From Candidatus Staskawiczbacteria bacterium (lineage in GTDB: Bacteria > Patescibacteriota > Minisyncoccia > Minisyncoccales > Staskawiczbacteraceae): a stretch of 49,164 bases of DNA. The translations under genes and the position numbers were made by a program. The notes beneath the pieces are model-generated. The model was not told the origin of the DNA, ran no database searches, and was given only the letters and a program-made list of their open reading frames with translations. Of this stretch, positions 15,263 through 47,980 are shown piece by piece (position 1 is the stretch's first letter; every line of letters starts with the position of its first letter). Location of the stretch: assembly GCA_023245145.1 (NCBI GenBank), contig JAHFKW010000003.1:49659-98822 (forward strand), in the 5' to 3' direction.

Positions 15263-15868
15263 ATGATTTTATCCGACAAAGATATTAAAAAAGCACTCAA
15301 AGAAGGCAAAATTGGCGTAACTCCTTTATTTCCTAATTCGATTCAGCCGGCCAGTGTGGATGTGCACTTGGGAGCCGATTTTTTGGTATTTAAGAATACC
15401 GATAATGTGTGCATTGACCCTAAGGAACCGATTGATGACATGATGGAAGCAACTTTTATTGATGAACATAAGCATTTCATTTTACATCCGGGGGAATTTG
15501 CTTTAGGCATGACTTATGAAACCATTGCGGTTCCCAACGATATGGTAGTGCAATTAAATGGTAAATCTTCTTTGGGCAGAATCGGACTGATTGTCCATGC
15601 TACGGCCGGATATGTTGATCCGGGAAACACCCTAAAAATTACTCTGGAATTGCATAACTTGGCTAATTTGCCCATTAAACTTTATTACAAAATGCCGATT
15701 GCCCAAGTGGCATTTGTAACATTGTCCAGCGAAGTGGAAGTGCCATATGGTAAGAACAGCTTGAACAGTAAATATTTTGGCAGTGTTAAGCCTATCGCCA
15801 GTCAATACCATAAAAATTTCACCAAAAATAACGAATGGCTTACGTTCGATGCAAAAAAGAAGAAGTAA
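15263..15868 (+). CDS. dcd: dCTP deaminase
   Basis: 'IQPASVDVHLGADFLVF', 'VVQLNGKSSLGRIGLIVHATAGYVDPGNTLKITLELHN'. Confidence 0.94.
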   Translation: MILSDKDIKKALKEGKIGVTPLFPNSIQPASVDVHLGADFLVFKNTDNVCIDPKEPIDDMMEATFIDEHKHFILHPGEFALGMTYETIAVPNDMVVQLNGKSSLGRIGLIVHATAGYVDPGNTLKITLELHNLANLPIKLYYKMPIAQVAFVTLSSEVEVPYGKNSLNSKYFGSVKPIASQYHKNFTKNNEWLTFDAKKKK

Positions 15869-16619
15869 CTTGTATAATTTAACTTCCGGCGTTCCTTTTA
15901 ATGTCAGCAGATCAAAAATTGCACTTTTTTTAGAATGTCCCCAATGTTTTTACTTGGATAGAAAATTGGGAATTGCCAGGCCCGATATGCCCGGTTGGTC
16001 GTTAAATAGCGCGGTGGACAGTTTATTGAAAAATGAATTTGATCTTTTGCGTGAACAAAAAAAGCCACATCGACTCATGCAGTCTTATCATTTAGATGCT
16101 GTGCCGTTTAGCCATCCCAGTTTTCATATCTGGCGCGATGATCAGGATATGAAAGTGGGTGCATCGGTGTTACATAAGGCAACGAATTTGAATATTTGCG
16201 GAATTATTGACGATATTTGGATTAACAATACAACGCAAGAACTGCATATTGTTGATTATAAATCCACCAGCACCGATTATCCTATTTCTTTAAACAGTAG
16301 ATGGAAAGAGGGCTATAAAAGGCAAATAGAGGTGTATCAGTGGATTTTTAAGAGACTTGGGTTTGATGTGTCACAAACAGGATACTTTTTATTTGCCAAT
16401 GCCACTCGTCATCGTCCCGGGTTTGATGGTAAATTGGAATTTGAAAATACGATTATTTCCTATGAAGGTCAAACGGACTGGATTGAGCCGTTGATATATG
16501 ACATTAAAAAATGCTTGGATGCAGGCCAAGCACCGGCTTCGGGTAAAGAGTGCCAGTACTGTGCATACCGTAATCTTATTAATAATGAGACGTTAAAAAA
16601 TCAATTGAGTTTAATATAA
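15849..16619 (+). CDS. PD-(D/E)XK (RecB/Cas4-like) nuclease with Cys pairs
   Basis: 'ECPQCFYLDRKLGI', 'HIVDYKSTS', 'RQIEVYQWIFK' (QxxxY-like), 'ECQYCAYRN'; internal start. Confidence 0.85.
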   Translation: MQKRRSNLYNLTSGVPFNVSRSKIALFLECPQCFYLDRKLGIARPDMPGWSLNSAVDSLLKNEFDLLREQKKPHRLMQSYHLDAVPFSHPSFHIWRDDQDMKVGASVLHKATNLNICGIIDDIWINNTTQELHIVDYKSTSTDYPISLNSRWKEGYKRQIEVYQWIFKRLGFDVSQTGYFLFANATRHRPGFDGKLEFENTIISYEGQTDWIEPLIYDIKKCLDAGQAPASGKECQYCAYRNLINNETLKNQLSLI

Positions 16620-16630
16620 TCAATAAACCT

Positions 16631-17197
16631 ATGAACCTTATAGATTTTGTCAACAAAAAACTTGCCATAGAAACTGTCATTGCTCAGTTTTTAGTTCTAG
16701 CTTCATTGGGATACCTTTTGTTTTTTAAGAAAAAGTACCCCGCTGTCGGTTTATGGCTTTCCAAGCAAGCCGTTTTGTTGGCTTTTCTGGTAGCTTTGGG
16801 CGCAACGGTTAGTAGCCTTTTTTATTCAAACATAGCCGGGTTTGAGCCTTGTGAACTATGTTGGTTTCAGAGAATATTTATGTATCCGCTAGTGGTTTTA
16901 TTGGGTTTGGCTTTGATAAAGAAAGAACGAATTATTATTGACTACGCTTTGTCTATTTCAGTTATTGGATTCTTTATTTCTTTGTATCATAACTACGTGT
17001 ACTACCAAAATGGTGGACTTAGTGCTATTTGTCAGGTGGGAGGTGTGGGCGTTTCATGCGTCAAGCGCTATGTTTTTGAATTGGGATATATTACTATTCC
17101 AATCATGGCCTTGACCGCGTTTGTATTGATTATTACTTTTTTGGTTTTTGCCAGTTTTAATGTTAAAAATCATGTTAGTAAATTAACGGATGTATGA
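16631..17197 (+). CDS. Disulfide bond formation protein B-like
   Basis: Multi-TM with 'FEPCELCWFQRIFMYPLVVLLG' and a second Cys pair 'AICQVGGVGVSCVKRY'. Confidence 0.9.
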   Translation: MNLIDFVNKKLAIETVIAQFLVLASLGYLLFFKKKYPAVGLWLSKQAVLLAFLVALGATVSSLFYSNIAGFEPCELCWFQRIFMYPLVVLLGLALIKKERIIIDYALSISVIGFFISLYHNYVYYQNGGLSAICQVGGVGVSCVKRYVFELGYITIPIMALTAFVLIITFLVFASFNVKNHVSKLTDV

Positions 17198-17961
17198 TGA
17201 AGGGAGCAGAGCCTATTTTTATAAATAACCACGGAGATGTTGGTATACTCATGCTACACGGTTTTACCAGTACCCCGGATGAGTTTCGCGAGTTAAGTGT
17301 ATATTTATCGGAACAGGGATTTAACCTTTACGCTCCCTTAATTGCCGGTCATGGAACTTCCCCCGAAGATTTAATGAAAACCAGACCAGAAGATTGGATG
17401 TTGTCGGCAAAACAGGCCTATGTCAGAATAAAAGCAACATCTCAAAAGGTGTTTATTATTGGTAATTCTTTTGGGTCAAACTTGGGCTTTTGGCTTATCA
17501 AAGAGTTTAAAAATGAACCAGCTGGTATCATAACTTTGGACGCACCTATAATTTTAAGAAATCATTTTTTTGCCATACTTAGACTTTATACGTACGGTCT
17601 TTTTAAGAAATATTACGTTAAGTCAAAAAAAGTATACGAAACTGATTACATTGATGGCGCAGATGATATTACGTATCGATTAATTCCGCTCAAAAGTTTA
17701 CGGGAGTTTTTAAAGTTTATAAAATATGAAAGCATCCCTCATTTGTCAGAAGTGAAAATCCCAATTTTAATTGCTCACTCCAAAGATGATCCTATTATTC
17801 ACCCCAAATCCGCGCCGTATATTCATAGTCACATAGGTTCTTCTTCAAAAAAAATATATTGGGTGGAAAGCCGTTACCATGGATTTACCATTGAGGGTCG
17901 GCGTAAAGAGGTATTTCATATGATTTCAAAGTTTATCCAAGAAATCTTGAGTTATGAATAA
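17194..17961 (+). CDS. Alpha/beta hydrolase (carboxylesterase/monoacylglycerol lipase-like)
   Basis: 'VGILMLHGFTSTPDEFRELSVYL', nucleophile 'IIGNSFGSNLG', 'ILIAHSKDDPIIHPKSA', catalytic 'SRYHGFTIEGRR'. Confidence 0.9.
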   Translation: MMKGAEPIFINNHGDVGILMLHGFTSTPDEFRELSVYLSEQGFNLYAPLIAGHGTSPEDLMKTRPEDWMLSAKQAYVRIKATSQKVFIIGNSFGSNLGFWLIKEFKNEPAGIITLDAPIILRNHFFAILRLYTYGLFKKYYVKSKKVYETDYIDGADDITYRLIPLKSLREFLKFIKYESIPHLSEVKIPILIAHSKDDPIIHPKSAPYIHSHIGSSSKKIYWVESRYHGFTIEGRRKEVFHMISKFIQEILSYE

Positions 17962-19600
17962 AACTATTCCGGAATTATTCTTCGAAGTAGCCAAAAATTT
18001 CTCACAAGATAGTGCTCTGTCCTATAAGCATAATGGGATCTATACTCCGATTTCATACTATCAACTTTCCTTGAGAGTGCAAAAAATGGCCAGTATATTG
18101 AAAGCTTACGGACTTAATAAGGGTGATGCTGTCGCACTCTTATCCGAAAATCGGCCCGAGTGGTTGATAGCTGATTTAGCAATTATGTCGCTGGGAGCTA
18201 TCACAGTTCCACTGCACACAACTTTAGTGCCTAGAGCCATGTCTGAAATTTTGCGTCACTGTGAAGCTAAAATATGTATTGTCTCAAATCATACCTTCTC
18301 AACCAAGTTATTAGATTTTAAAGGGCAAGTTTTAGATTGGAATGCATTGGCGCAAGAAAGTAATACTGAATTTTTTGATAATACGATAATAATGGCGGAT
18401 CCCGATGATATTTGTACGATTATGTATACTTCTGGAACCACGGGGGAGCCAAAAGGCGTTGCCTTAACCCATAAAAATATATTGAGCAATGTGGTGGCGG
18501 TCAATGCCGTGGTTCCCGTAAAACCCGGTGATGTGTTTTTATCTTTTTTGCCATTGAGTCATATTTTGGAAAGAACGGTCGGACATTATATCCCCCTATT
18601 CTTTGGAGCGACTATTGCCTATGCAGAAAGCGCAAAACAATTAGCTCATAATTTACAGGAAGTAAAACCTACGGTATTGATAGCGGTTCCCAGAGTCTTT
18701 GAAAAGTTCCATGATTCTATATGGGATGGCGTCAAAACTTCTTGGTTTAAAAAGAAATTATTTATTTGGGCGCTACGACAGGTAAAAAATACTGTCTGGT
18801 ATTCCTTGGCCAACGTATTAGTTTTTCAAAAAATCAGAAATGTGTTTGGCGGAAAATTACGCTTGGCGATTTGTGGTGGAGCTGCTTTACACGAAAATTT
18901 ACCTAAGTTCTTTTCTAACATCGGTATTACTATCCTTGAGGGTTATGGATTAACTGAAACCTCGCCCGTGATTAGTACTAATACACAAAGTTTTTTAAAA
19001 TTTAGAACGGTCGGTCAGCCTTTACAGAGTGTTATGGTTAAAGTTAATGCAGATAAAGAAATTTTGGTTAAAGGTGACAGCGTCTTTAAGGGTTATTATA
19101 GAGATGCGATCGCAACCCAAAAAGCTTTTGATGCAGATGGATGGTTTTTGACTGGAGATTTAGGGTTTATTGATGTGCAGGGTTTTTTAACTATTATTGG
19201 GAGAAAAAAAGATATGTTTGTTTTGTCCGGAGGTAAAAATATCTGGCCGGAAAATATAGAAAACGTGTTAAATAACGATAAATTTATTACACAGTCTATT
19301 GTGGTTGGTCGAAATCAAAAGTTTGTTTCGGCATTAATTTTTCCCGATTGGCCGGAGGTGGAGCGCGCGGGCTTGGCCCGCGCGCCAAAAAGTAAAGAAC
19401 TTCTGGCGCTTTTTCAAAAAAGATTTGAAGAAAAAATTAATCCCACACTTTCCAAAGTGGAACAGATTAAGAAGTTTACTCTATTGGGTACATCGTTTTC
19501 ACAGGAAAAAGAAGAATTAACTCCCACCTTAAAACTGCGTCGACACGTTATTGAAAGGCGATATGAAGAGGAGATAAATAACATGTATTATAATTACTAA
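17954..19600 (+). CDS. AMP-dependent acyl-CoA/long-chain fatty acid synthetase
   Basis: 'TIMYTSGTTGEPKGVALTHKNI', 'EGYGLTETSPVISTN', 'GWFLTGDLGFID', 'GRKKDMFVLSGGKNIWPENIE'. Confidence 0.94.
   Translation: MNKTIPELFFEVAKNFSQDSALSYKHNGIYTPISYYQLSLRVQKMASILKAYGLNKGDAVALLSENRPEWLIADLAIMSLGAITVPLHTTLVPRAMSEILRHCEAKICIVSNHTFSTKLLDFKGQVLDWNALAQESNTEFFDNTIIMADPDDICTIMYTSGTTGEPKGVALTHKNILSNVVAVNAVVPVKPGDVFLSFLPLSHILERTVGHYIPLFFGATIAYAESAKQLAHNLQEVKPTVLIAVPRVFEKFHDSIWDGVKTSWFKKKLFIWALRQVKNTVWYSLANVLVFQKIRNVFGGKLRLAICGGAALHENLPKFFSNIGITILEGYGLTETSPVISTNTQSFLKFRTVGQPLQSVMVKVNADKEILVKGDSVFKGYYRDAIATQKAFDADGWFLTGDLGFIDVQGFLTIIGRKKDMFVLSGGKNIWPENIENVLNNDKFITQSIVVGRNQKFVSALIFPDWPEVERAGLARAPKSKELLALFQKRFEEKINPTLSKVEQIKKFTLLGTSFSQEKEELTPTLKLRRHVIERRYEEEINNMYYNY
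19363..19385. repeat. In-frame GC palindrome within the acyl-CoA synthetase
   Basis: GCGCGCGGGC-TTG-GCCCGCGCGC, perfect 10-bp stem, encodes part of 'ERAGLARAP'. Confidence 0.9.
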
Positions 19601-19618
19601 AAATGGTATAATAATTAA

Positions 19619-20326
19619 ATGTTAAATGAAACATTTTGGAGGAACTATTTTAGGGTATATGACAGTTTAAACCAAATATTGCCTTATCGGCAGTTGCTAT
19701 TGGATATCAAAAAAGCACTGGAATTAAAATATACTGATGTAGTGCTTGACCTTGGAAGTGGAACAGGTAATTTAATGATGGAATTAAAGGGTGAATGTAA
19801 AGAAATTATTGGCATTGATTTTTCGCGTGAAGGAATCAATATTCATAGAAAAAAAGATCCCTTGGCTAAGCTTATCATAGCAGATATTACTAAGCCCCTG
19901 CCCTTTGGAAATAATTATTTTTCCAAGGTGGTTTCCAATAATGTAATTTACACGCTTAATAAGCAGCAGCAAGTGGCACTTTTATTGGAGGCATGGCGTA
20001 TATTAATCCCCGGCGGAAAATTAGTGATTTCAAATGTTAAAAAAGATTTTTCTCCAGGTATTATTTATAAAAATCATCTTTTAAAAAGCGTAAAGAGTAA
20101 GGGATTTTTTAATACACTTACTACCGACTTTACTTTGGCGTTAGCAAATATAAAAATTTTATATTTTAATAAAAAAATAAAGGAAAACGGCGGGCAAGAT
20201 AATTATCACTTTCTTTCAGAGTTAGATCAAGCAGATTTACTGAAATTGACAGGATTCATTGATATTTCTCTGGGTAAAGATGTGTATGCGGGGCAAGCTA
20301 TAATGCATAGTGCTTATAAAATATGA
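19619..20326 (+). CDS. Class I SAM-dependent methyltransferase
   Basis: 'DVVLDLGSGTGNLMMEL', 'IIGIDFSREGI', 'IIADITKPLPFGNNYFSKVVSNNVIYTL'. Confidence 0.9.
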   Translation: MLNETFWRNYFRVYDSLNQILPYRQLLLDIKKALELKYTDVVLDLGSGTGNLMMELKGECKEIIGIDFSREGINIHRKKDPLAKLIIADITKPLPFGNNYFSKVVSNNVIYTLNKQQQVALLLEAWRILIPGGKLVISNVKKDFSPGIIYKNHLLKSVKSKGFFNTLTTDFTLALANIKILYFNKKIKENGGQDNYHFLSELDQADLLKLTGFIDISLGKDVYAGQAIMHSAYKI

Positions 20327-21069
20327 ATGTAATAAGCGAGCTTTCACTACCAATCCTGGGTATGTCAAAAACCATCTATTTTGGAATACCCAACACGCCC
20401 GTCGAATTAGAAGAAATGTTTAAGTTAAGATACAACATTTACAATACATTGCATTATTTTAATCAAGATGTGGTTAGACCCCCACTAGATAAAGATCAGT
20501 ATGATTTGAACGGTAAATGTCAGTATTTTATTGCTAAAATTGATGAAAAAATAATTGGTACGATGAGATTAATTCAAGATGAATTTTTACCAACCGAAAA
20601 AGATTGTTTTGCCTTTGAAGAACCGCTTAGTATGAAAGAAATTGCTCGCCAAAATCGGGGCGAACTAGGAAGGTTAATTGTTGTTTCCCATGATAAGAAT
20701 ACTTATTTGCCAAGAAATATTGTGATGCTATTTTTGATGTATTCGGTAATGGTGTTTTCGGAGAACAAACATATATTGGGCGGTTATTCATTTATTACTC
20801 AAAAGCTATATGGCAAATTGCAAAAATTAAAATTTCCTTTTCATTTGATTGAACATTATAAAAATATTTATCCTCGCGATGGCCTACTTGGCCCCTATTT
20901 TTACGAGCATGGCGAAGTGTTGCCTATTTATTTTTTTGTCAAAGAGGCAAAAATATATTTAGAAACACTGTTAGATAATAAAAATATGTTTAGAAAAGAG
21001 AGCGGAAGAAAATACATCTTAAGACCCACTATTTATAATACATTTTTAAAGATACTCAAGATATTATGA
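20323..21069 (+). CDS. LuxI/FeeM-superfamily N-acyltransferase (N-acyl amino acid or AHL synthase-like)
   Basis: 'MFKLRYNIYNTLHYF', DxxD-like 'DKDQYDLNGKCQYFIAKIDEKIIGTMRLI', 'GELGRLIVV' (E-x-x-R) matching the order of conserved LuxI-fold residues. Confidence 0.82.
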   Translation: MNVISELSLPILGMSKTIYFGIPNTPVELEEMFKLRYNIYNTLHYFNQDVVRPPLDKDQYDLNGKCQYFIAKIDEKIIGTMRLIQDEFLPTEKDCFAFEEPLSMKEIARQNRGELGRLIVVSHDKNTYLPRNIVMLFLMYSVMVFSENKHILGGYSFITQKLYGKLQKLKFPFHLIEHYKNIYPRDGLLGPYFYEHGEVLPIYFFVKEAKIYLETLLDNKNMFRKESGRKYILRPTIYNTFLKILKIL

Positions 21070-22673
21070 TATCTATCATTAGCCCTATTTTAGCCATAGT
21101 TATTTTACTTAATTTCATATTGGGTATTATTATTCTGTCTCGCGGTTTACGTAATAAAATTAATGTATTATTCGGACTAATGTCATTGTCAGTAGCACTT
21201 TGGAGTGTGGGAATTTTGGGTTTCTATCAAATTGCTTTTCCTACATTACCTTCGGGTTGGATTATTGTTACCCATACGTCAGCATTATTTATTTCTCTAA
21301 TTTTTCTTTATTTTACATTGTATTTCCCGGAGTCGATTATTGAAAATAAGATAATTGTAATGCTACTCTCTTTACCCTTTATCATTATTATGTATTACTT
21401 GCTATTTACGAAAGAAATAATTGGTATGGTAGTAGCTCCTATGTATCAAATTAATTTTGGCTACGTTTTTTACACTCTTTGTATATTAGTGTATTTTTTC
21501 TTAAGTTATGTAGCTCTTTTCATACAATATAAAAAAACTATCGACACCATTCAAAAAGCCCAGATTAAATACATTGCGATCGGCTCAATTGTTTCATATA
21601 TGTTGGCAAATATTATGGATTTAATACTGCCATTTTTCGGAGTGTTTAATTTTACTTGGCTGGGGCCGGTGTGTACGTTGCTTTTGGTGGGTTCTATTGC
21701 TTATGCCATTTTAAGGCACCATTTGTTTAATATTAAGGTTATTACCACTGAGTTACTTATTTTTTCTGTGTGGGTGTTTTTACTGTTAAAGCTGATTGTA
21801 TCGCAAGGGTTACAAGACTGGATTATTAACGGGGGATTATTGTTGGCGGTGGTAGTAGTAGGTATTTTGCTCATTCGTAGTGTGCTAAAAGAAGTAAAAC
21901 AGAGAGAGCAAATTGAAAAATTAGCCAAAGATGTACAGCGATCTTTAGAGGTTGAGAAAAAGGCTAATGAGGAATTAGAGAGGTTGGATAAGTTTAAGGA
22001 TCAGTTCTTAATGACCACTCAGCATAATTTGCGGACGCCGTTGACGAGTTTAATGGGATATTCGGATTTGTTACTGAATGGTACTTTTGGCAAACAGAAT
22101 AAAAAAACCAAAGAAGTAATAATAAAGTTTCAGGGGTTGACCAATGGCATGATAAAAATGGTCAACGACTTTTTAGACATGGCACAGTTTCAGTTGGGTA
22201 AGGATATTGTGGCTTTAAAACCCGGGGTGGAGCTTGGGCCGATCTTGGACGAAATTATTAACGAACTGAAATTTAAATCTGATTCAAAAGGTATTTTACT
22301 TGAATTAAAAAAGCCGGATAATTTACCAAACTTAAATGCCGATCGCGAAAAATTAAAGGCTGCGTTGTTTAATGTGATTGATAATTCTATAAAATATACT
22401 CCCAAAGGAAGCGTGACGATTAATGTTGGTCACAATGGGATGCTTAATATTGTGGTGACAGACACGGGTATTGGCATCACCAAAGACAGAATAGAAAACT
22501 TATTTAACAGTATGTTTGAGAGGGGAGAGGCGGCTAAGAAAGCGTCTACCGTGGGCAGTGGCATTGGATTATATTTGGCGTATCAAATTATTAAATCTCA
22601 CAAGGGTACGATTCGCGTTCAGTCGGAAGGCGAGGGTAAGGGCTCTACTTTTTACATTGAATTGCCACTGTAA
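21066..22673 (+). CDS. Sensor histidine kinase with N-terminal multi-TM (7TM-like) sensor
   Basis: About 7-8 TM segments; H-box 'FLMTTQHNLRTPLTSLMGYSDLL'; N/G boxes 'NVIDNSIKYTPKG', 'VTDTGIGI', 'GSGIGLYLAYQIIKSHKG'. Confidence 0.92.
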   Translation: MISIISPILAIVILLNFILGIIILSRGLRNKINVLFGLMSLSVALWSVGILGFYQIAFPTLPSGWIIVTHTSALFISLIFLYFTLYFPESIIENKIIVMLLSLPFIIIMYYLLFTKEIIGMVVAPMYQINFGYVFYTLCILVYFFLSYVALFIQYKKTIDTIQKAQIKYIAIGSIVSYMLANIMDLILPFFGVFNFTWLGPVCTLLLVGSIAYAILRHHLFNIKVITTELLIFSVWVFLLLKLIVSQGLQDWIINGGLLLAVVVVGILLIRSVLKEVKQREQIEKLAKDVQRSLEVEKKANEELERLDKFKDQFLMTTQHNLRTPLTSLMGYSDLLLNGTFGKQNKKTKEVIIKFQGLTNGMIKMVNDFLDMAQFQLGKDIVALKPGVELGPILDEIINELKFKSDSKGILLELKKPDNLPNLNADREKLKAALFNVIDNSIKYTPKGSVTINVGHNGMLNIVVTDTGIGITKDRIENLFNSMFERGEAAKKASTVGSGIGLYLAYQIIKSHKGTIRVQSEGEGKGSTFYIELPL

Positions 22674-22728: not shown

Positions 22729-24483
22729 ATGAATGTCGAGCCTCAACGCCTTAAAAAATTCCTCGTAGATGCGGAATTAATTAGCGAAAAAGACTTTGAT
22801 AAGGCTTTGAAAATAAGCCAAGAAAAAAGCCAAAAAATTGGCGATGTTTTGGTTAAATTAAAATATATCGATCAAGCTAAATTAGCCAAGTTTGAAGCTT
22901 ACCTGTTGGGAATCCCCTTTGTTAATATTGAAAAAGAACAAATTAATCCGGATGTGCTAACCATTATTCCCGAGCAAATTGCCCGTGCCCACAACATTAT
23001 TGCTTTTCGCCGGAATGAAAATAATTTAGAAGTGGCCATGTTGGACCCGGAAGACTTGATTACCATTGAATTTATCAAGAAAACCAATCCGTTGCTTAAA
23101 ATCCTGCCCCGCTTTACCACGCCCGATGGTATTAAAAACGCATTGCGCCAATATCAAAAAACCTTGGATCTTGAATTTGGTGATATTTTAAAATCAGACA
23201 CCGCCAATATCAGCCATGTTAGCGATGAACAAAATGATAACCAAAAGTCTGAAGAACTGATAAAAGTGGCTCAAGAGTTACCTATCATTAAGGTGGTAGA
23301 CACGTTGCTTAAGCATTCCATTTTGCAACGGGCTTCGGATGTGCACATTGAACCGCTGGAAAATCAGGTGGTGGTGCGTTTTAGAATTGACGGCATTTTA
23401 CATGATGTAATGTCTCTGCCGTTGGCGACGGCGCAAGGTATTGTGGCCAGAATTAAAGTGTTGAGTAATTTAAAATTGGATGAACATCGTTTACCGCAAG
23501 ATGGCCGATTCAAAATTGAAACTGATGATTACAAATATTCGGTGCGTGTTTCGGTTCTGCCCGTGTTTACCGGCGAAAAAATTGTGATGAGGCTGTTGGC
23601 TGAAAATGTGAGAGTGTTAAGTCTTGAAGACTTGGGGTTTTCAGGCAAAGCTTTGGAACGCATTAAAGTTAACATGAAAAAACCGACGGGTATGATTTTA
23701 ATTACGGGGCCGACGGGGTCGGGAAAAACTACGACGCTCTACGCCATGATGCAAATTTTAAATACACCCAGCGTCAACATTTCCACCGTGGAGGACCCCA
23801 TTGAATACCGCATGCCCCGCATTAATCAAACTCAAGTTAATTCCAACATTGGGCTGACATTTGCGGCCGGCCTGCGCTCGTTAGTTCGCCAAGACCCCAA
23901 CATTATTATGGTTGGGGAAATTCGTGATAACGAAACCGCTTCACTAGCCATCAATGCGGCACTGACCGGTCACTTGGTGTTAAGTACGCTTCACACCACG
24001 GACGCGGCGGGCGCCATTCCAAGGTTAATTGACATGCAATGCGAGCCGTTTTTGATTGCCTCCACCACCAATGTGGTGATTGCCCAAAGACTGGTCAGAA
24101 AATTTCAGGGCGAAAAAGAAAAATATTCCGTTAAACCCGAGGATTTAGAGAATCTGGAAAAGTATTGCAATTTGGAAAAAATCTTAGAAATTTTAAAAGC
24201 GGAAAAACTGATAAAGCCCAAAGGGACATTAAAAGACATTGAATTGTTTAGACCCAAGCCTTCCAAAGATTCCATAGATGGTTACAAAGGGCGAATGGGG
24301 CTTTACGAAGTTTTACCGGTGACCGACACAATTAAAGAATTAATCATCAAAAAAGCCTCTACGCGCGAAATTAAAGAGCAGGCGATTTTGGAAGGTATGC
24401 GCACCATGTTTGAAGATGGATTTGTAAAGGCGGTGATGGGGCTGACTTCCATTGAAGAAGTTTTGAGAGTTATTATAGATTAA
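22729..24483 (+). CDS. pilB: Type IV pilus assembly ATPase
   Basis: 'RASDVHIEPLENQVVVRFRIDG', Walker A 'GPTGSGKTTT', 'VEDPIEYRMPRINQTQVN', 'SLVRQDPNIIMVGEIRD'. Confidence 0.95.
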   Translation: MNVEPQRLKKFLVDAELISEKDFDKALKISQEKSQKIGDVLVKLKYIDQAKLAKFEAYLLGIPFVNIEKEQINPDVLTIIPEQIARAHNIIAFRRNENNLEVAMLDPEDLITIEFIKKTNPLLKILPRFTTPDGIKNALRQYQKTLDLEFGDILKSDTANISHVSDEQNDNQKSEELIKVAQELPIIKVVDTLLKHSILQRASDVHIEPLENQVVVRFRIDGILHDVMSLPLATAQGIVARIKVLSNLKLDEHRLPQDGRFKIETDDYKYSVRVSVLPVFTGEKIVMRLLAENVRVLSLEDLGFSGKALERIKVNMKKPTGMILITGPTGSGKTTTLYAMMQILNTPSVNISTVEDPIEYRMPRINQTQVNSNIGLTFAAGLRSLVRQDPNIIMVGEIRDNETASLAINAALTGHLVLSTLHTTDAAGAIPRLIDMQCEPFLIASTTNVVIAQRLVRKFQGEKEKYSVKPEDLENLEKYCNLEKILEILKAEKLIKPKGTLKDIELFRPKPSKDSIDGYKGRMGLYEVLPVTDTIKELIIKKASTREIKEQAILEGMRTMFEDGFVKAVMGLTSIEEVLRVIID

Positions 24484-24488
24484 ATAGT

Positions 24489-25709
24489 ATGCCTAATTAT
24501 TTTTACACTGCTAAATCGTTTGACGGAACGGCTGAAACCGGTGTTTTGCCTGCGCAAGATGAGCGTGAGTTGGCACAGATTTTGAAAGGCAAGGGGATGA
24601 TGTTGATTCGCGGAGTTTTAAGCGACCAGCAAAAAAAGTCTTTTTCGAAAATGAGCATTTCTTTGTTTGGGGTTTCGGCCACGGAAAAAATTATGATGAC
24701 GCGAAACTTGGGGGTAATGTTTTCCACCGGTTTGTCGCTGACAAAAATGTTTGATATTTTGTCGGTGCAAACTAAAAATAAAACCCTCAAAGACGCCCTG
24801 CTAGATGTTAAAGAAAAAATCAATAAGGGCGAAAACCTTTCAGAAGCCCTTAGTCGCTACCCTAAGATTTTTTCTGAGCTGTTTGTGAACATGATTAAAG
24901 TGGGGGAGGAGTCGGGAACTCTAGAAGACATTTTTGCCATTTTAGCACTACAACTTGGCAAAGAACACGAATTAAAGTCCAAAATTGTCAATGCCATGAT
25001 TTATCCATCTATTATTTTGGTGGTGATGGTGTTGATTGGCGGAGTCATTATCACTATTGTGTTGCCGGCTCTGGATACTTTTTTTACGTCGCTCAATGTG
25101 GATATTCCGTTTTACACTCGTGCCTTGCTTTGGATGGGACGGTTTATGTCTGAACGTTGGTATGTGGTGCTAGCGGGTTTAATTGCCTTGGCCGGCGCTT
25201 TATTTGGAGCCTTAAAAACTAAACCGGGAAAATGGCTACTGGACACAATACTGCTTAAACTGCCTTTTGTTTCGCCCATTGTCAAAAAAAGTAATTCCGC
25301 GGCGTTGGTCAGATCATTGAGTTCTTTAATTACCGCGGGGGTCTCTTTAAATCGGGCCTTGGAAATTTCTTCTAAAACATTGGGGAATCACTATTTTAAA
25401 AATGCTGTCATGGAAACTGAAAAACAAATTAAAAAAGGAGAAAAATTGTCCAATGCCTTAAAACCCTATCAAAACTTATTTCCTTTTGGTGTTATTGAAA
25501 TGGTGGAAGTAGGTGAGGAAACAGGAAAAACCGCACCGATTTTAAAAAAGTTAGCTGATTTTTATGAACAAGAAGCCATTAATGCTGTGGAAAAATTGAC
25601 CATTATTATTGAGCCGTTGTTGATTGTGTTTCTGGGACTTTCCGTCGGATTTTTTGCCTTTTCCATTATTCAGCCAATGTATTCTTCGCTTAAAAGTATT
25701 GGAGCATAA
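24489..25709 (+). CDS. pilC: Type IV pilus inner membrane platform protein
   Basis: 'YTAKSFDGTAETG', two GspF domains with 'FVNMIKVGEESGTLEDIF' and 'VIEMVEVGEETGKTAPIL'. Confidence 0.94.
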   Translation: MPNYFYTAKSFDGTAETGVLPAQDERELAQILKGKGMMLIRGVLSDQQKKSFSKMSISLFGVSATEKIMMTRNLGVMFSTGLSLTKMFDILSVQTKNKTLKDALLDVKEKINKGENLSEALSRYPKIFSELFVNMIKVGEESGTLEDIFAILALQLGKEHELKSKIVNAMIYPSIILVVMVLIGGVIITIVLPALDTFFTSLNVDIPFYTRALLWMGRFMSERWYVVLAGLIALAGALFGALKTKPGKWLLDTILLKLPFVSPIVKKSNSAALVRSLSSLITAGVSLNRALEISSKTLGNHYFKNAVMETEKQIKKGEKLSNALKPYQNLFPFGVIEMVEVGEETGKTAPILKKLADFYEQEAINAVEKLTIIIEPLLIVFLGLSVGFFAFSIIQPMYSSLKSIGA

Positions 25710-32373: not shown

Positions 32374-32757
32374 ATGAGTAAAAAAATATATTTAATTGAA
32401 GATGACCCCGCTATTATTGATATTTATGCCACCATGATAAAGCGAGCTCATTTTGAAGTGGAAGTCTTAAGTTTGGGTCAGCAGGTGTTGGCGAAAGTCA
32501 AAGCCATTGTGGCAGGGGAAGAATCAAAACCGGATTTAGTCCTGCTAGATTTAATCTTACCTGATATGAATGGGATGGAAATTTTAGCAGAAATGAAAAA
32601 AAATGAGGCTACAAAAAGTATTACAGTGTTTATTTTGTCCAACCAGGCGGATGCAGAGAGTTCGCAGGCAAGTTCGGTCAAACCTGATAAGTTCATTGTC
32701 AAAGCCAATATTACGCCAACACAACTTTTGGAAATTATCCAAAAACAGTTGAAATAA
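32374..32757 (+). CDS. Single-domain response regulator
   Basis: 'KIYLIEDDPAIIDIY', 'PDLVLLDLILPDMNGMEIL', 'VFILSNQ', 'DKFIVKANITP'. Confidence 0.9.
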   Translation: MSKKIYLIEDDPAIIDIYATMIKRAHFEVEVLSLGQQVLAKVKAIVAGEESKPDLVLLDLILPDMNGMEILAEMKKNEATKSITVFILSNQADAESSQASSVKPDKFIVKANITPTQLLEIIQKQLK

Positions 32758-47605: not shown

Positions 47606-47980
47606 ATGTCTCAAAATATTTTAGTGGTGGAAGACGACGAATTTTTACGAGGATTGATTGGCCACAAATTGTTATCTGAAGGATTTAGTTTTTTCGTTGC
47701 TAAGGACGGCAGGGAGGGGTTGGATAAAATCAAAGAGACTAAGCCAGATTTAATATTACTTGATATGCTTTTGCCCGTCATGGATGGTTTTGAGGTTTTA
47801 GAAGAAATAAAAAAAGATCCAGAAATCGCTTCCATTCCGGTGATAGCGCTTTCAAATTTAAGTTCCAAAGAAGATATTGATCGCGCATTGCAGGCAGGAG
47901 CTATTCAGTACCTCATAAAATCACAGTCCAACCCCGGCGTTATTATTGATACGATTAGAGAAGTTTTAAAGAAAAAATAA
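47606..47980 (+). CDS. Single-domain response regulator
   Basis: 'NILVVEDDEFLRGLIGHKL', 'PDLILLDMLLPVMDGFEVL', 'VIALSNLSS', 'YLIKSQ'. Confidence 0.93.
   Translation: MSQNILVVEDDEFLRGLIGHKLLSEGFSFFVAKDGREGLDKIKETKPDLILLDMLLPVMDGFEVLEEIKKDPEIASIPVIALSNLSSKEDIDRALQAGAIQYLIKSQSNPGVIIDTIREVLKKK

Follow-up and report, generated by a model that had tools for sequence, protein, structure and literature searches.

A putative acyl-amide signalling operon with a LuxI/FeeM-like synthase and a chimeric 7TM sensor kinase in a Staskawiczbacteria genome

Introduction

Several described systems couple an acyltransferase of the LuxI/FeeM type, or a variable signal-processing gene, to modifying enzymes or a membrane receptor. 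The text of Bernard et al. (2020; PMC7567580) counts 36 matches to LuxI-type hidden Markov models (HMMs) in the candidate phyla radiation (CPR); a sensory kinase adjoins 18 of these, and such LuxI-kinase pairs were proposed to be complete quorum-sensing systems, with acyl-homoserine lactones (AHLs) as the assumed signals. It also counts 51 CqsA-kinase pairs. ThiF enzymes from Mycobacterium and Pseudoalteromonas turn N-acyl amino acids into cyclic oxazolones, which nitroreductase-family enzymes desaturate (PMC10404671, PMC12856293). In the ComQXPA locus of Bacillus subtilis, the variable parts are comQ, comX, and the 5′ end of comP (PMC6334282). The subject here is a five-gene operon (17194-22673, forward strand) in a 49,164-nucleotide stretch of DNA, hereafter the window, from a Candidatus Staskawiczbacteria genome of the Patescibacteriota (contig JAHFKW010000003.1, positions 49,659 to 98,822). 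It joins a LuxI/FeeM-like synthase to a seven-transmembrane (7TM) sensor histidine kinase, which at the level of the gene pair is the same phenomenon as the CPR pairs in the text of Bernard et al. (PMC7567580). The pairing itself is therefore not new. The reading favored here, with moderate confidence, is that the operon is a self-contained acyl-amide signalling unit whose synthase and sensor have been exchanged together on a resident locus of kinase and pilus genes.

The LuxI/FeeM-Like Synthase

The gene at 20323-21069 (+) encodes a LuxI/FeeM-fold N-acyltransferase, a putative acyl-amide signal synthase. Its product scores above the Pfam cut-offs for FeeM (PF21926; 4e-7, 30.4 bits, cut-off 27), Autoind_synth (PF00765; 2e-6, 28.0 bits, cut-off 24), and Acetyltransf_5 (PF13444; 4e-5). 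In an alignment of ten relatives, R36, Y37, Y40, D58, D61, R82, E114, and R117 are invariant. The initial annotation had read the motifs LRYNIY, DKDQYD, GTMRLI, and GELGRLIV as the conserved Arg, DxxD, Arg, and ExxR positions of the fold, and these indeed fall on the invariant R36, D58/D61, R82, and E114/R117. The invariant residues we take to correspond to the catalytic residues of EsaI and LasI. The AlphaFold2 model (pLDDT 82, pTM 0.83), searched with Foldseek against the PDB, finds LasI first (E 5.7e-9), followed by BjaI, MesI, RpaI, FeeM (2g0b, E 1.5e-6), TofI, and EsaI, of which BjaI, MesI, and RpaI are coenzyme A (CoA)-dependent AHL synthases. A phmmer search of the protein against PDB sequences returned chance-level matches only, and assignment to the exosortase-associated acyltransferases (TIGR03694) was rejected at 40.8 bits against a cut-off of 111.95.

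By profile, residues, and fold, the product belongs to the LuxI/FeeM superfamily, far beyond chance, as had been proposed from the letters of the window. This membership is at the superfamily level, at which sequence does not separate an AHL synthase from an N-acyl amino acid synthase. From sequence and model, the enzyme would be expected to transfer an acyl chain to an amine.

The Chimeric Kinase and Apparent Exchange of Its Sensor

The kinase gene (21066-22673, +) directly follows that of the synthase and encodes HisKA_7TM (PF16927, 5e-9), HisKA (PF00512), and HATPase_c (PF02518) domains. Residues 1-235 (about 21066-21770) make up the sensor, and residues 236-535 the linker and the HisKA/HATPase half. 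A full-length BLAST search placed kinases of the same family without FeeM nearest, because of the kinase half only, and searching the halves separately overturned the reading of a plain family kinase. Residues 301-535 are 70, 67, and 64% identical to the kinases of L128, L127, and L126, respectively (L-numbers label comparison loci in other genomes), all of the same genus and all upstream of pilB. Residues 1-235, in contrast, are 39-41% identical to those of L165, a methyltransferase-FeeM-kinase locus from another family, and 30-35% identical to those of other FeeM-linked kinases, while within the genus they share 27% identity with L126 and a match of only 77 residues with L127, both 7TM-type kinases, and no meaningful alignment with L128. 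The change-over point lies between about residues 210 and 300. Judged by these alignments, the window kinase is chimeric, its kinase half being of its own family's type and its sensor half resembling those of FeeM-linked kinases elsewhere.

The same kinase position carries different upstream enzymes across the family: FeeM and a methyltransferase in the window, ThiF and a nitroreductase in L126 and L137, an alpha-oxoamine synthase in L024, DUF362 in L129, an amidohydrolase in L130 and L144, PlsC and HAD in L025 and L026, a methyltransferase in L145, and a family of unknown type in L127 and L136. Sensors go with these enzymes. For L126 and L137, the nearest sensors are those of nitroreductase-linked kinases from other families (36-44%), for L129 that of the DUF362-linked L068 (45%), and for L145 that of the methyltransferase-linked L081 (54%); the L130 and L144 sensors are closest to each other (75%) although their kinase halves differ. 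Among 57 kinases, 39 could be tested, and for 35 of these the best sensor match belonged to a kinase with the same class of upstream enzyme (shuffled mean 4.8; 0 of 5000 shuffles). These counts are approximate, as the analyst assigned the classes unblinded by means of Pfam and BLAST, and some of the pairs are closely related. Agreement held in 29 of 33 cases after exclusion of matches with related kinase halves. For the kinase half of the same 57, the best match shared the enzyme class in 7 of 37 cases (shuffled mean 4.6; 952 of 5000 shuffles, not significant), and for all 18 family members it lay inside the family. Within the FeeM class, FeeM distance follows sensor distance (Mantel 0.54; partial correlation given the kinase 0.49, 0 of 5000). 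Because the sensor half tracks the upstream enzyme and the kinase half does not, synthase and sensor appear to travel as cassettes. In these sequence comparisons, the sensor half varies together with the signal genes and the kinase half stays conserved, which is the pattern of a pherotype locus.

Several neighboring cases deserve separate mention. The alpha-oxoamine synthase of L024 (8881-10089, -), of the KBL/SPT/CqsA fold (PDB matches to CqsA at E 4e-36 and KBL at 1e-80), lies directly upstream of the orthologous kinase and pilB and is a candidate alpha-hydroxyketone-type signal synthase. The upstream genes at L127:6085-6888 and L136:5764-6540 form a family without a Pfam match (27% mutual identity, E 1e-20), a candidate new synthase type, and the sensors of the kinases downstream of them are mutual best matches. 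In L066-L095, many of the strongest Patescibacteria 7TM kinases have a methyltransferase of the Methyltransf_20 or Methyltransf_11/25 type immediately upstream, and the sensors cluster according to methyltransferase type. The same-genus kinase orthologs of L128, L131, L134, and L138 have a shorter N-terminus (458-475 aa, 59-74% conserved) and no constant upstream enzyme; they are perhaps "deaf" or differently tuned.

Linkage of Synthase and Kinase Across the Phylum

FeeM-like genes are infrequent. Pfam FeeM matches 13 of 381 genomes of the phylum, and a profile built from relatives matches 16 of 387 genomes of the class; the scan of public genomes used a three-sequence alignment, a seven-sequence one being too divergent. 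One locus of the comparison genomes is identical to that of the public contig JACPWO010000002.1, from Candidatus Andersenbacteria of the same phylum. Among 26 distinct readable loci from these searches, 23 carry FeeM and a histidine kinase side by side on one strand (the window, L017, L018, L048-L056, L165, and L167-L176), and L019, L154, and L166, which are cut by contig ends, stand outside the 26. A ThiF gene lies between FeeM and the kinase in L049, and in L055 the kinase precedes FeeM. The FeeM-linked kinases checked against Pfam carry HisKA_7TM, four of them slightly under the cut-off, apart from that of L053, which had no match; those of L056 and L174 were assigned to the 7TM type by BLAST. 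Kinases of the 7TM type occur in 164 of 381 genomes, mostly at about one per genome, so that chance adjacency to FeeM would be rare. The order methyltransferase-FeeM-kinase recurs in distant Patescibacteria. A synthase immediately beside a HisKA_7TM kinase is thus a recurrent module in unrelated lineages, and the tie between the two genes suggested by the initial annotation extends to co-exchange of the sensor domain.

FeeM lacks an adjoining kinase in L046, L047, and L177, whose FeeM-like proteins probably represent a different use of the fold. Those at L046:9007-9702 and L047:9164-9847, from the same class, have stronger Pfam FeeM scores and no kinase nearby.

Methyltransferase and ThiF Partners

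The gene upstream of the synthase (19619-20326, +) encodes an S-adenosylmethionine-dependent class I methyltransferase (Methyltransf_11, 2e-15). A profile search of the PDB with it returned class I enzymes of a generic kind, headed by phosphoethanolamine methyltransferases. FeeM has a methyltransferase partner in the window, L056, L165, L169, L171, and L019, and the two are fused in L054 (FeeM-methyltransferase) and L174 (methyltransferase-FeeM), fusions of the Rosetta-stone type. From this association, the methyltransferase may tailor the FeeM product. At L165:4936-6318 (-), a fusion of a PlsC-type acyltransferase and a methyltransferase adjoins FeeM and the 7TM kinase.

A ThiF-type gene accompanies FeeM in L017, L018, L048, L049, L051, L053, L176, and L089. 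Given these partners and the known oxazolone chemistry of ThiF, an N-acyl amino acid is, by analogy, the likely core product of the FeeM-like loci, and the methyltransferase and ThiF could be alternative modifiers of its carboxyl end. Neither a ThiF cyclase nor a nitroreductase was found beside FeeM among the window genes scanned, while related loci have both (L126, L137) or ThiF (L017, L018, L176). The ThiF and nitroreductase pairs of the window's own family (L126:1084-3181 and L137:5968-8147), of acyl-oxazolone-type chemistry, lie upstream of kinase orthologs, that of L126 also upstream of pilB, and no FeeM was found near them.

Probable Supply of the Acyl Donor

The first gene of the operon (17194-17961, +) encodes an alpha/beta hydrolase of the monoacylglycerol-lipase/carboxylesterase type (Hydrolase_4, 4e-16), with a nucleophile elbow GNSFG and a bacterial monoacylglycerol lipase as PDB match (5xks, 3e-30). 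The second (17954-19600, +) encodes an AMP-dependent acyl synthetase (PF00501, AMP-binding, 1e-80), the single AMP-binding match in the whole genome, which comprises 625,768 bases in 14 contigs with a completeness score of 99%. The hydrolase would free fatty acids, from which the synthetase would supply acyl-CoA.

Genome-wide searches found neither an acyl carrier protein nor a PlsC-type acyltransferase (PF01553) in the window genome. The acyl donor is therefore probably acyl-CoA made by the synthetase, and FeeM is the sole candidate acyl-CoA consumer among the enzymes searched. The coupling of synthetase to FeeM drawn in the initial annotation is thereby supported.

The synthetase occurs in 14 of 36 family genomes, the 13 others carrying orthologs at 53-60% identity, and the hydrolase adjoins it in nearly all synthetase-bearing family loci fetched. 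In five loci (the window, L024, L025, L026, and L032) the pair lies a few genes ahead of the same kinase, and in four of these the genes between include an acyl-using enzyme type: FeeM, an alpha-oxoamine synthase, and, twice, PlsC and HAD. These enzymes may draw on the acyl-CoA of the synthetase. The pair also occurs in the family without FeeM, and methyltransferase-FeeM-kinase occurs elsewhere without the synthetase; the five-gene block is therefore not conserved as a unit, and on this point the initial annotation is not supported.

Locus Organization and Pilus Genes

The five open reading frames share the forward strand and overlap by 4-8 nt (17961/17954, 20326/20323, and 21069/21066), apart from an 18-nt gap between synthetase and methyltransferase (19600/19619). 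The gene run opens with a DsbB-like disulfide oxidoreductase gene (16631-17197, +; PF02600, 4e-12) whose 3′ end overlaps the hydrolase start (17197/17194) and whose function is probably unrelated to the rest. The layout and coordinates are as first annotated, and Pfam agrees with each of the five gene labels. Promoter-like sites are no commoner than in shuffled sequence (27 vs. 27.9). Upstream of dsbB lies a PDDEXK/Cas4-like nuclease gene (15777-16619), kept near the locus in L028 and L127; the TTG start called for it overlaps dcd and probably lies too far upstream.

Downstream begins a run of type IV pilus genes: a PilB-type ATPase (T2SSE and MshEN domains; 22729-24483, +; PF00437, 5e-119), a PilC-type platform protein (24489-25709, +; PF00482, 3e-58), and PilM (from 29853). 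The kinase precedes pilB in the window, in L126, L127, L128, and L131 of the same genus, and in L024. At this locus, a fatty-acid supply pair meets a cassette of synthase and sensor and a resident backbone of kinase and pilus genes.

A candidate partner of the kinase is the single-domain response regulator with which the pilus run ends (32374-32757, +; PF00072, 1e-16). It is 46% identical to the receiver directly after the kinase ortholog in L140, from the same genus, and ATP synthase subunit A follows the receiver in both. A second single-domain receiver (47606-47980, +; PF00072, 3e-24), an alternative candidate partner, is 34-41% identical to receivers adjoining FeeM-linked kinases in L017, L018, L049, and L052. 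An output of the kinase on the type IV pilus is plausible.

Proposed Mechanism and Alternative Explanations

In the proposed mechanism, the hydrolase would free fatty acids from scavenged glycerides, the synthetase would turn them into acyl-CoA, and the FeeM/LuxI-like enzyme would move the acyl chain onto an amine, probably that of an amino acid. The methyltransferase, whose association with FeeM is observed, would then modify the product, which, to judge from co-inheritance, would be the ligand of the adjacent 7TM kinase; the kinase may in turn act through a stand-alone receiver protein on the neighboring type IV pilus system. Exchange would have brought synthase genes, together with the 7TM-encoding half of a kinase gene, onto a resident kinase-plus-pilus locus; in sister genomes this locus holds other enzymes, each with its own matching sensor.

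A wider and more tentative extension, for which the odds seem slightly unfavorable, is a phylum-wide combinatorial communication in Patescibacteria. Unrelated small-molecule synthases (FeeM with a methyltransferase, FeeM with ThiF, ThiF with a nitroreductase, methyltransferases, alpha-oxoamine synthase, amidohydrolase, and DUF362) would each have a 7TM sensor of their own, and synthase and sensor would move as one cassette from locus to locus while the backbone of kinase and pilus genes stays conserved. Sister species of one genus would thereby "speak" chemically different languages.

Several observations weigh against the signalling reading. FeeM is found in 1 of 36 family genomes, that of the window, and is absent from all 35 others. 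Synthetase and FeeM are unlinked outside the window, and methyltransferase-FeeM-kinase loci of distant lineages lack the synthetase. FeeM distance also follows kinase distance, more weakly (Mantel 0.41; partial 0.32). The regulator beside FeeM in L169 is OmpR-type rather than single-domain, so that pilus output is not general, and lipid enzymes partner elsewhere, as the PlsC-methyltransferase fusion beside FeeM in L165 and PlsC and HAD before the kinase in L025 and L026.

The last of these points bears on the main rival, a membrane amino-lipid pathway in which an OlsB-like enzyme makes an N-acyl amino lipid that is then methylated, and what the 7TM kinase detects is not an exchanged signal but the state of the membrane or a need for lipid. 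The Acetyltransf_5 match above cut-off, a family associated with OlsB-type lipid acyltransferases, favors it alongside those PlsC-bearing loci, as does the dependence of Patescibacteria on lipids that they must take from outside. However, the window genome has no PlsC match to add a second chain, the ThiF/nitroreductase (oxazolone-type) and alpha-oxoamine-synthase enzymes that occupy the same position relative to the kinase are not lipid-membrane enzymes, and class-specific sensor exchange is easier to reconcile with a ligand specific to each product than with a general property of the membrane. A membrane-lipid role, called equally open in the initial annotation, survives as an alternative without that equal standing and is now considered unlikely.

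Rather less probable still is an ordinary metabolic two-component locus, in which the kinase responds to a substrate or nutrient and regulates the neighboring enzyme genes, whose specialised metabolite serves some purpose other than communication. Co-inheritance of a sensor with its target genes would also yield the match of sensor and enzyme, and some FeeM loci (L169) have OmpR-type regulators; yet the nearby regulators, in the window as in most loci, are single-domain receivers that lack a DNA-binding domain, and the kinase stays before pilB while the enzymes change. The least probable alternative, a classical LuxI-type AHL synthase using S-adenosylmethionine and acyl-CoA, as assumed for CPR LuxI homologs by Bernard et al. 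(2020), accords with the Autoind_synth match and with LasI, BjaI, MesI, and RpaI as top structural matches, but the FeeM profile scores slightly higher, one would expect ThiF and methyltransferase partners with N-acyl amino acids but not with AHLs (PMC10404671, PMC12856293), and no LuxR-type receptor was seen among the five genes or annotated neighbors (no LuxR-type profile match among the window genes scanned; the rest of the genome was not scanned for LuxR).

The acyl-amide signalling reading thus remains preferred, and the overall interpretation given at first annotation was mostly right in direction, its expectation of a block conserved as a unit being wrong. Most Patescibacteria are uncultured and host-dependent, and how they find and hold hosts is poorly known. 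If the reading is true, very small genomes devote part of their content to making and sensing lipid-derived signals that act on pili, and the rule relating sensor to enzyme would make the ligand of each orphan 7TM sensor predictable from the adjacent enzyme.

Comparison with Known Systems

The text of the CPR LuxI-kinase report, supplements aside, describes no methyltransferase or ThiF partners, FeeM fusions, 7TM sensor family, sensor exchange, pilus linkage, or acyl-CoA supply module (PMC7567580), and literature searches found no FeeM/kinase pair beyond it. As far as the literature searched shows, the enzyme-specific exchange of sensors, the methyltransferase and ThiF partners with their fusions, the acyl-CoA supply, and the pilus backbone are new here. 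The N-acyl amino acid synthases and acyl-oxazolone pathways (tyzABC and trzAS of Mycobacterium, OxzAB of Pseudoalteromonas; PMC10404671, PMC12856293) share the FeeM-type acyltransferase with ThiF, and nitroreductase, partners, a likeness seen in the ThiF-FeeM loci L017, L018, L048, L051, L053, and L176 and in the ThiF and nitroreductase of L126 and L137. Unlike those pathways, the loci described here add a 7TM kinase, and the window has a methyltransferase instead of ThiF and nitroreductase. The ornithine-lipid N-acyltransferases (OlsB) belong to the same GNAT-like superfamily as the window synthase, to judge from its Acetyltransf_5 match, but their PlsC-like partner OlsA has no counterpart in the window genome.

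Quorum sensing through membrane kinases is known from the LuxM/LuxN and CqsA/CqsS systems of Vibrio, in which a small lipid-derived signal is perceived by a multi-transmembrane histidine kinase. The likeness extends to the CqsA-fold enzyme at the kinase position of L024, whereas the sensor domain family of the Vibrio kinases is other than HisKA_7TM and the synthase differs. The arrangement resembles the ComQXPA pherotype locus, which likewise places a signal-processing gene and a variable N-terminal receptor half on a more conserved kinase and whose exchange creates different communication groups (PMC6334282, PMC4008528). The ComQXPA signal is a peptide, whereas here small-molecule synthases of unrelated enzyme families would be exchanged across genera and families; if so, these loci would be a small-molecule counterpart to the peptide pherotype loci of Bacillus.

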